Positions 16,794 through 19,058 of a stretch of 52,343 nucleotides of DNA are shown here, in pieces. A program made the translations under genes and the position numbers. Below the pieces are notes generated by a model. The model searched no databases. It had not been told where the DNA came from and saw nothing but the letters and a program-made list of their open reading frames with translations. Each line of letters begins with the position of its first letter. The first letter of the stretch is position 1. Source of the DNA: Desulfurellaceae bacterium (GTDB taxonomy: Bacteria; Campylobacterota_A; Desulfurellia; Desulfurellales; Hippeaceae); NCBI GenBank assembly GCA_015490005.1, contig WFYS01000040.1, positions 1-52,343 on the forward strand, read 5' to 3'.

Positions 16794-17611
16794 TCTAACA
16801 AGTCCTCAATCAACTTTTTCCCCATATCCATGTCAAATTCCATACCTGTCCATATTTTAAACGAATAATTTGCCTGTGCAATAAACATATCTAATCCATT
16901 TATAGATGTCAAGCCTATATCTCTTGCAGACTTCACTAAAGGTGTGTCGTAATAAATAACGTCCGCAATTAATGGTTCATTTACCCATGACAAATCAATA
17001 GGTACATCCTCCCCGTTAAGCCCTACAGGCGTGCAATTTATTATTACATTGGCATCTGATATAATATTTTTATCATTCAAACTTCCAACAGTAATTTCTA
17101 ATTTATCATCAAACTTTTCAGCTAACTTTTCAGCCCTTGAAGTATTTCTGTTTAAAACTAATACTTTTTTTATACCCAGCTTATAAAGCGCATAAACAAC
17201 ACTAACAGCGACACCACCTGCACCCAAAACTACTATTACATCATCATCAGAGCAAAACTTTGCATACTCGTCGAACATATACATAAAACCCAAAAAATCT
17301 GTATTGTAACCTATCAGCTTACCATTGTCATTTTTTACAGTATTCACAGAACCTAAAAATTCGGCATCTTCGTCTAGCTCATCGACAAGTTTAGCTACAT
17401 GCTCCTTAAACGGTATTGTTATATTTGCCCCTTTTATACCTAGAGACTTCATCCCAAGAATAGCATTGACGATATCTTCAACTTCAAACGCCACATAGAT
17501 GGCATTAACACCATAAAACTCGAACATATAAGTATGTAACGGTGGAGAAAGGCTGTGCTTTACAGGATTCCCAACAACACAATAAGTATCAGTATTAGCC
17601 GCTATATACAT
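16790..17611 (-). CDS. aroE: shikimate dehydrogenase
   Basis: AroE reduces 3-dehydroshikimate to shikimate with NADPH. Substrate-binding SLSPPLH, catalytic Lys in NITIPFKEHV, catalytic Asp in YNTDFLG, and the nucleotide motif GAGGVAVS followed by LNRN (the Arg reads the NADP phosphate) are present, as is NCTPVGLNG. I start it at ATG 17611 (273 residues) because AAGGAGAGGG at 17618-17627 is well placed. An in-frame extension to 17632 adds seven residues but would put the ribosome site inside the gene. It overlaps the tsaE 3' end by 17 bases and pilB by 4. Confidence 0.94.
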   Translation of the reverse strand: MYIAANTDTYCVVGNPVKHSLSPPLHTYMFEFYGVNAIYVAFEVEDIVNAILGMKSLGIKGANITIPFKEHVAKLVDELDEDAEFLGSVNTVKNDNGKLIGYNTDFLGFMYMFDEYAKFCSDDDVIVVLGAGGVAVSVVYALYKLGIKKVLVLNRNTSRAEKLAEKFDDKLEITVGSLNDKNIISDANVIINCTPVGLNGEDVPIDLSWVNEPLIADVIYYDTPLVKSARDIGLTSINGLDMFIAQANYSFKIWTGMEFDMDMGKKLIEDLLE

Positions 17612-18017
17612 GGATTTCCCTCTCCTTATCACTGATATCTAAAAACTCAATCAAAACGTCTGGTTTTATATCGAGTATTTCAGGCCATTCAACAAAAAAT
17701 ATACCATCCTTAGTTAGATATTCATCAATACCTGAGCCAAACACATCTTCTTTTGATTTAAGCCTATAAAGGTCAATGTGGAATACATTACCGTATTCAT
17801 TTACTATGGTAAACGTAGGGCTGCCATTAAATTTATCCTCTTTTATGCCAAGTTTTTCTAAAGCAAAACGCACAAATGTTGTTTTTCCACTACCTAAGTC
17901 ACCTTTTAAAAAAACGATACATCTATTTTTGCCCAAAATAAAATCCTCTACAATCTTATGGGCTATCATTTTGGTATCATCTAAACTCTTTGAAACCAGG
18001 TTAATACTACCCCCCAT
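17595..18017 (-). CDS. tsaE: tRNA threonylcarbamoyladenosine biosynthesis ATPase TsaE
   Basis: TsaE is the P-loop ATPase that works with TsaB and TsaD to install t6A37 in ANN-decoding tRNAs. It has Walker A KGDLGSGKTTF, the motif FNGSPTFTIVNEY, HIDLYRLKS and the family hallmark FFVEWPEIL. From the ATG at 18017 it has 140 residues. An upstream in-frame TTG at 18035 is disfavoured because the -10 box (18024-18029) lies between the two. No Shine-Dalgarno precedes the ATG, so a leaderless mRNA is predicted. It heads the operon aroE-pilB-pilT-pilC. Confidence 0.93.
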   Translation of the reverse strand: MGGSINLVSKSLDDTKMIAHKIVEDFILGKNRCIVFLKGDLGSGKTTFVRFALEKLGIKEDKFNGSPTFTIVNEYGNVFHIDLYRLKSKEDVFGSGIDEYLTKDGIFFVEWPEILDIKPDVLIEFLDISDKEREIHVYSG

Positions 18018-18023
18018 GATGTA

Positions 18024-18052
18024 CTTATACAACAACAGGCTTTACAATTCAA
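18024..18052 (-). promoter_or_regulatory. sigma-70 promoter of the tsaE-aroE-pilBTC operon, predicted leaderless
   Basis: Read on the minus strand, TTGAAT (18047-18052) and TATAAG (18024-18029) are exactly 17 bases apart. The tsaE ATG (18015-18017) starts six bases after the -10 box, so the first transcribed base should coincide with or touch the start codon. The element physically overlaps the divergent promoter at 18041-18068. Confidence 0.7.
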
Positions 18053-18068
18053 GATTTACTTTTATAAT
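18041..18068 (+). promoter_or_regulatory. sigma-70 promoter of the GT9 glycosyltransferase gene, predicted leaderless
   Basis: TTTACA (18041-18046) and a perfect TATAAT (18063-18068) are 16 bases apart. The ATG at 18078 follows the -10 box after nine bases with no Shine-Dalgarno, so the leader would be zero to three bases. Its -35 region overlaps the -35 region of the tsaE promoter on the other strand, so the two should compete for polymerase. Confidence 0.7.
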
Positions 18069-18077
18069 CCTTAAAGC

Positions 18078-19058
18078 ATGAAAATTCTGATTATTCAGCT
18101 TAGACAATTGGGGGATGTATTACTCTCAACACCGTTAGCAGAAAACGTAAAACACTTTTATCCAGACTATACTGTTCATTTTCTAACAACAAGAATGGCA
18201 AAAGAAATAGTAATTAACAATCCATATATAGACAAAGCACTATTACTAGATGATGGAATTCTGAACGAGTTCAAAATGATTAAAAGAGTTGTAAACGAAA
18301 AATACGATGCTATTTTAGATGTTCAGCGAACAGCACGTTCAAAAAGAATAAGCCTATTTTCTAAAGCTAAAACAAGAGCTGCATTCAAAGGAAAACACAA
18401 TAAACCTTTCTATAATTTGGAAATAGTAAAATTTACAAGCGGATATACAGCTTTTGAAAGATTAGACCTACTTAAGGCTATAGGCATAGAAAAGCCAAAA
18501 AAAATCCTACCAAAACTGTATTTTCCTAAAGAAATTGAGGAGAAAATTACTGAATACCTAAAAAGAAAGAACATAGATAGATATTTCGTTATCTCTCCGA
18601 CGGCAAGAAAAATAACAAAAATGTGGGACTTAGAGGAGTTTGGAAAGTTATCTGAAACACTATCTAAGCGTTTTAATTTAAAAGCAATAGTGGCATACGG
18701 CACACCCTCAGAAAAACAATTTGCTATCCTGTGTTCAAAATTTACAAATAATTCACACGTTTTAGAAAAACCATTTTCCATTATGGAATTTGCAGCTTTA
18801 GTTAAAAATGCAGAATTCAGTTTAGGAAATGACTCCTTTGCTTCACATGTTGCCGTTAGCCAAAACACAAAAACTGTTGTTGTGTGCGGCCCTACGAGTG
18901 GCTGGTTTCCTGAAAATAAAAATGTGCTTTTAATTTATAAAGGTTTGAGTTGCCAACCGTGCAACAATCCGGACAAATGCCCTTATGACTTAGCGTGCTA
19001 TAAAACACTAAAGCACACTGAATTTGTTGATAAAGTTATAGATTTCCTAAAGAGTTAA
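18078..19058 (+). CDS. glycosyltransferase family 9 (heptosyltransferase-like) protein
   Basis: GT9 enzymes such as WaaC, WaaF and WaaQ transfer heptose from ADP-heptose to LPS core at the cytoplasmic face. The 326-residue protein begins with the GT9 N-terminus MKILIIQLRQLGDVLLSTPL-type motif (conserved Asp near 13), has a Rossmann-like second half with VISPTARKITKMWD and the donor-site LGNDSFASHVA near 255, and ends in a Cys-rich segment (CQPC, CPYDLAC) seen in many GT9 members. The acceptor cannot be assigned. It is probably leaderless, and its end overlaps the convergent HD-GYP gene by 12 bases. Confidence 0.88.
   Translation: MKILIIQLRQLGDVLLSTPLAENVKHFYPDYTVHFLTTRMAKEIVINNPYIDKALLLDDGILNEFKMIKRVVNEKYDAILDVQRTARSKRISLFSKAKTRAAFKGKHNKPFYNLEIVKFTSGYTAFERLDLLKAIGIEKPKKILPKLYFPKEIEEKITEYLKRKNIDRYFVISPTARKITKMWDLEEFGKLSETLSKRFNLKAIVAYGTPSEKQFAILCSKFTNNSHVLEKPFSIMEFAALVKNAEFSLGNDSFASHVAVSQNTKTVVVCGPTSGWFPENKNVLLIYKGLSCQPCNNPDKCPYDLACYKTLKHTEFVDKVIDFLKS

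Follow-up and report, generated by a model that had tools for sequence, protein, structure and literature searches.

The 60 bases that separate the start codons of two divergently oriented genes in a sulfur-reducing bacterium of a genus taken to be Hippea (Desulfurellia, Campylobacterota) contain two divergent sigma-70-like promoters. These very probably form a compact and conserved sigma-70-type pair with abutting -35 boxes, in which each promoter would initiate transcription at, or within approx. 3 nt of, the start codon of its gene, both genes being leaderless. The two genes are located in a window of 52,343 nucleotides, i.e., the whole stretch of DNA that was analysed. On the minus strand, tsaE (17595..18017; 140 residues; ATG at 18017-18015) was recognized from its matches to the Pfam TsaE family (2.7e-29) and to TIGR00150, the latter above the cut-off; it heads the gene row tsaE-aroE-pilB-pilT-pilC. 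On the plus strand, a gene encoding a GT9-family (heptosyltransferase-like) protein (18078..19058; 326 residues; ATG at 18078-18080; Pfam PF01075, 4.3e-19) is apparently a single-gene unit. In a profile comparison, the product of this gene scored under the cut-offs of the heptosyltransferase I, II and III models.

The tsaE promoter, read on the minus strand, is formed by the -35 hexamer TTGAAT (18047..18052; ATTCAA on the plus strand) and the -10 box TATAAG (18024..18029), separated by 17 bp; the GT9 promoter, on the plus strand, is formed by TTTACA (18041..18046) and TATAAT (18063..18068), separated by 16 bp. A direct rereading of the sequence confirmed these letters and coordinates, which were already given in the first-pass annotation, as well as the short distance that it reported between the -10 boxes and the ATG codons (6 to 9 bases), which is 6 nt for tsaE and 9 nt for the GT9 gene. 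On the other hand, the promoters had been described as face-to-face, when they are in fact divergent (back-to-back) and point apart. They were also said to overlap in their -35 regions; this holds for the promoters as a whole, whose spans (18041-18068 on the plus strand and 18052-18024 on the minus strand) have 12 bp in common, but not for the hexamers, which abut (18046/18047) and have no base in common. The two distinct -10 boxes are separated by 33 bp (18029 to 18063), no -10 element being common to both strands. From this arrangement, transcription of tsaE is predicted to start at the A of its ATG (18017), 6 nt past the -10 box, and that of the GT9 gene at 18075..18078, 0-3 nt ahead of the ATG, given the -10-to-ATG distance of 7-9 nt found in eight of eight genomes; the predicted starts are approx. 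61 bp apart. Ahead of the two start codons, matches to AAGGAGGT do not exceed 3 nt, in agreement with the earlier claim that neither gene has a Shine-Dalgarno sequence, and RNA structure at the two 5' ends was not beyond that of shuffles (z 0.45 and 0.51).

The match to the promoter consensus is not by itself above chance: nine promoter-like sites were detected in the surrounding 3.5 kb, versus 15.7 expected from shuffles. The GT9 promoter is the best of these nine sites (11/12 consensus), and the tsaE promoter, whose -10 box does not end in T, is absent from the list. The absence of this usual final T was counted against the leaderless reading. It is because of its conservation, and not of a consensus match in a single sequence, that the site exceeds chance. 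The divergent tsaE/GT9 pair is present in eight of the nine genomes of the genus. The first-pass annotation had proposed that the intergenic region of related genomes be compared for conserved hexamers, and in all eight genomes with the pair the hexamers and both spacers are kept. On the minus side these eight genomes show TTGAAT-17-TATAAN, in which only the sixth base of the -10 box varies, followed after 6-7 nt by ATG or GTG; on the plus side they show TTTACA-16-TATAAT, followed after 7-9 nt by ATG. In the gap-free block of 45 bp that was aligned across these genomes, 23 of the 24 promoter-element columns are invariant, versus 6 of the 21 other columns (Fisher p = 2e-6). Third codon positions of the adjacent GT9 gene are near saturation: among its first 90 codons, 36 encode the same amino acid in all these genomes, and the third base is invariant in 3 of them. 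The 14-mer CTTTACAATTCAAG (18040..18053), which comprises both abutting -35 boxes plus one base on each side, is invariant in the eight genomes and occurs in each of them as one exact copy, at the tsaE/GT9 locus. One of the eight is H. maritima MH2T (G003), where the two promoters occupy approx. 482700-482768 of the chromosome. In the ninth congener, G002, a gene of 277 residues separates the pair, and tsaE retains TTGAAT-17-TATAAA-7-ATG. The invariant hexamers and the fixed spacers (18040-18068 and the orthologous regions) suggest that the sigma-70 factor of Hippea uses the -35 box, unlike that of C. jejuni.

Leaderless transcription of tsaE and the GT9 gene, as predicted in the first-pass annotation, is well supported by the comparison of these genomes, given the -10-to-start distance fixed in eight of eight, the lack of a Shine-Dalgarno sequence and the in-frame stops found in most species. 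According to that annotation, a conserved longer N-terminus of either protein would speak against its prediction. In most Hippea species longer N-termini are excluded, because in-frame stop codons are present within the promoter or immediately before the start codon, and the alignment of the GT9 proteins begins at residue 1 in all the orthologs. A longer N-terminus of TsaE, starting from the TTG at 18035, was considered and rejected, since this codon lies within the promoter and its frame is stopped in most relatives. The start codon itself was also counted against the leaderless reading: four of the eight tsaE orthologs start with GTG, a codon that is poorly used by E. coli on leaderless mRNAs. 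In G005, G008, G006 and G001 (loci L004, L005, L006 and L008) GTG occupies the leaderless position of tsaE; therefore, leaderless initiation at GTG is predicted in these genomes.

Similar promoters of tsaE were also found in four genera outside of Hippea. In genera g3, g4 and g5 this gene is preceded by TTGAA(T/A)-17-TATAA(A/G), with the ATG 6 or 7 nt downstream, and in genus g2 by TTGAAA-17-TATATT-10-ATG. In the sister genus g5 (genomes G017 and G018) the GT9 gene is likewise divergent, and 6-7 nt separate a TATAAT box from its start codon, ATG or GTG; the -35 boxes are kept apart by one to two dozen extra bases and still both genes look leaderless. In g6, which belongs to another family and is taken to be Desulfurella, the start of tsaE overlaps the stop codon with which the frame ahead of it ends, and no such promoter was found. 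This overlap was seen at the tsaE loci of G009-G011 (L079-L081, other family), where the preceding frame is, we presume, rlmH. The distribution of these arrangements suggests that tsaE switched between operon-internal and leaderless, self-promoted states across families. The leaderless state of tsaE seems to be characteristic of one family, and the overlap at the -35 boxes seems restricted to Hippea.

Promoters of this type were also detected elsewhere in these genomes. The pattern TTGA-18/20-TATAA-7/9-ATG showed 176 matches, summed over the nine genomes, versus 92 with a decoy spacing and 25 with the reversed pattern; a scan of 351 sampled genes revealed a modest excess of leaderless-spaced promoters, with 14 ATG matches at 5-9 nt. 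Among the pattern matches inspected in three genomes, several are located at gene starts and recur between species; judging from their N-termini, these genes encode FeoA-like, EamA-type transporter, LysM-domain, Mrp-like and FabG-like proteins. The Mrp-like and FabG-like starts also have a GGAG- or AAGG-like sequence nearby, and their leaderless status is ambiguous. The FeoA-like gene (75 residues) is preceded by a promoter of the TTGACTAA type, with 6-8 nt between TATAAT and the ATG, that is kept in several congeners (G003:C1:1389950, L126; G004:C1:451123, L148; G000:C49:12372, L131), and is another candidate for a conserved leaderless gene. In H. maritima (G003), which was sampled over 400 kb, a second divergent pair was found (L054:6040-6190), formed by genes for an MnmA-like protein and a response regulator with 120 bp between them, each preceded by a leaderless-type promoter; these two promoters do not overlap, and a plus promoter that resembles that of this pair recurs at G005:C86:324-362. 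The tsaE/GT9 pair is the tightest example found of this recurring class.

According to the mechanism that we favor, transcription of each gene would begin at its start codon or no more than approx. 3 nt from it. Both the row headed by tsaE (tsaE-aroE-pilB-pilT-pilC) and the GT9 gene would be read as leaderless mRNAs, presumably translated by 70S or leaderless-type initiation. The footprint of RNA polymerase extends from approx. -55 to +20; with a 12-bp overlap and starts approx. 61 bp apart, the footprints at both promoters should clash, and a polymerase bound at one of them would be a steric obstacle to binding at the other. These footprints do not imply a regulatory switch, and at ordinary promoter activity the hindrance would probably be a mild constraint; the overlap is most simply explained by the need to save space in a small genome. 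The first-pass annotation had gone further and proposed a reciprocal switch between the t6A/aromatic/pilus-motor genes and the glycosyltransferase gene. In such a reading, the mutual exclusion of polymerases would be the selected function, and the operon and the glycosyltransferase gene would be expressed in turn. The expected clash and the overlap geometry, fixed in all the congeners that have the pair, are what such a switch would show. Nevertheless, the sister genus g5 lacks the overlap, even though both genes look leaderless there, and so does G002, where another gene lies in between; there is no evident site for a regulator, and the 14-mer is unique to the locus; no antagonistic roles are known for the two gene sets; and all five of the five bidirectional promoters tested in E. 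coli were too weak at their basal level to compete, competition appearing only on strong activation of one side (PMC12825309). The proposal of a switch thus found no support, and we consider it quite improbable. The broader claim, that in Hippea two overlapping leaderless promoters suffice for a reciprocal switch with no regulator, and that 70S initiation is efficient there even when the leaderless start codon is GTG, is very improbable.

Two other explanations were considered. If transcription started further upstream, inside the neighboring gene, and translation proceeded from leaders devoid of a Shine-Dalgarno sequence, the promoters near the start codons would be coincidental; in an AT-rich genome promoter-like sites are indeed frequent by chance, but hexamers, spacers and start distances would hardly be fixed in eight species in which synonymous sites are near saturation, nor would the geometry of the tsaE promoter be repeated in other genera, and this explanation is highly unlikely. 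The invariant 14-mer could instead be the operator of a transcription factor that controls both genes, with the promoter matches being secondary, as might be thought from a run of 14 bases that do not vary within a diverged region and that show partial dyad symmetry (CTT....AAG, 8/14). However, no exact copies of it are present elsewhere in these genomes and copies with one mismatch are few, G002, g3 and g5 retain the tsaE half (CTTGAA) but not the GT9 half, at the position of the tsaE -35 box, and the -10 boxes are just as invariant; this is the least credible of the explanations considered. An operator of a regulon was rejected, CTTTACAATTCAAG being unique to the locus. The reading as a pair of divergent promoters of two leaderless genes is the one compared below with known systems.

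Leaderless genes have been predicted in 207 out of 953 bacterial genomes from TA-like boxes located approx. 10-12 bp before the starts, a set that includes delta- and epsilon-proteobacteria and in which RNA-processing genes are enriched (PMC3160421). The genes described here resemble these TANNNT leaderless genes in the -10 box located 6-9 nt before the start codon and in the lack of a Shine-Dalgarno sequence, and agree with TA-led leaderless genes in the position of the -10-like box and in the assignment of the start codon; the enrichment of information-processing genes in that set is a further likeness. They differ in that both genes of a divergent pair are involved, with conserved -35 boxes, and in that the Hippea case is predicted from sequence. 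Leaderless mRNAs have been mapped in C. jejuni and H. pylori, members of the same phylum, and are poorly conserved between species; promoters of C. jejuni have no -35 sequence and all its mapped leaderless genes start with ATG (PMC3847290). The Hippea genes share with them a TA-rich -10 box directly before the start and the lack of a ribosome binding site, but their -35 boxes are invariant, some of the tsaE orthologs start with GTG, and tsaE is predicted to be leaderless throughout Hippea and most of the sister genera. The earlier remark that nothing of the kind was described for this type of bacterium therefore has to be restricted to the divergent leaderless pair, of which no description was found for this bacterial group in the literature searched; the same search gave no relevant description of leaderless genes in Hippea. 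The tsa genes of M. tuberculosis are not among its leaderless genes (PMC5335608).

As for the arrangement of the promoters, the bidirectional promoters of E. coli similarly use one DNA region for both strands, which polymerase cannot occupy in both orientations at once; in contrast, they have one -10 element in common and starts 10-23 bp apart (PMC12825309), whereas at the tsaE/GT9 locus there are two promoters with abutting -35 boxes, approx. 61 bp between the starts and no common -10 element. A closer likeness is found in the PCR and PM promoters of the EcoRV system, which also diverge from each other and overlap in the sites at which polymerase binds, but are under the control of a C protein (PMC5333194), whereas no regulator is evident at the tsaE/GT9 locus. 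The 12-bp overlap of the core elements, fixed in eight of eight genomes, places this locus among divergent overlapping promoters. Leaderless genes are known, and so are divergent promoters that overlap; the tsaE/GT9 case brings the two features together, and its novelty is that of an instance, not of a kind. For a deep-branching, culturable lineage of the Campylobacterota, it provides a clean and conserved example in which leaderless transcription is predicted for tsaE, which belongs to the t6A tRNA-modification pathway, itself widely conserved, and the locus is a natural construct for measuring how polymerase is shared by abutting promoters and whether GTG functions as a start on a leaderless mRNA.
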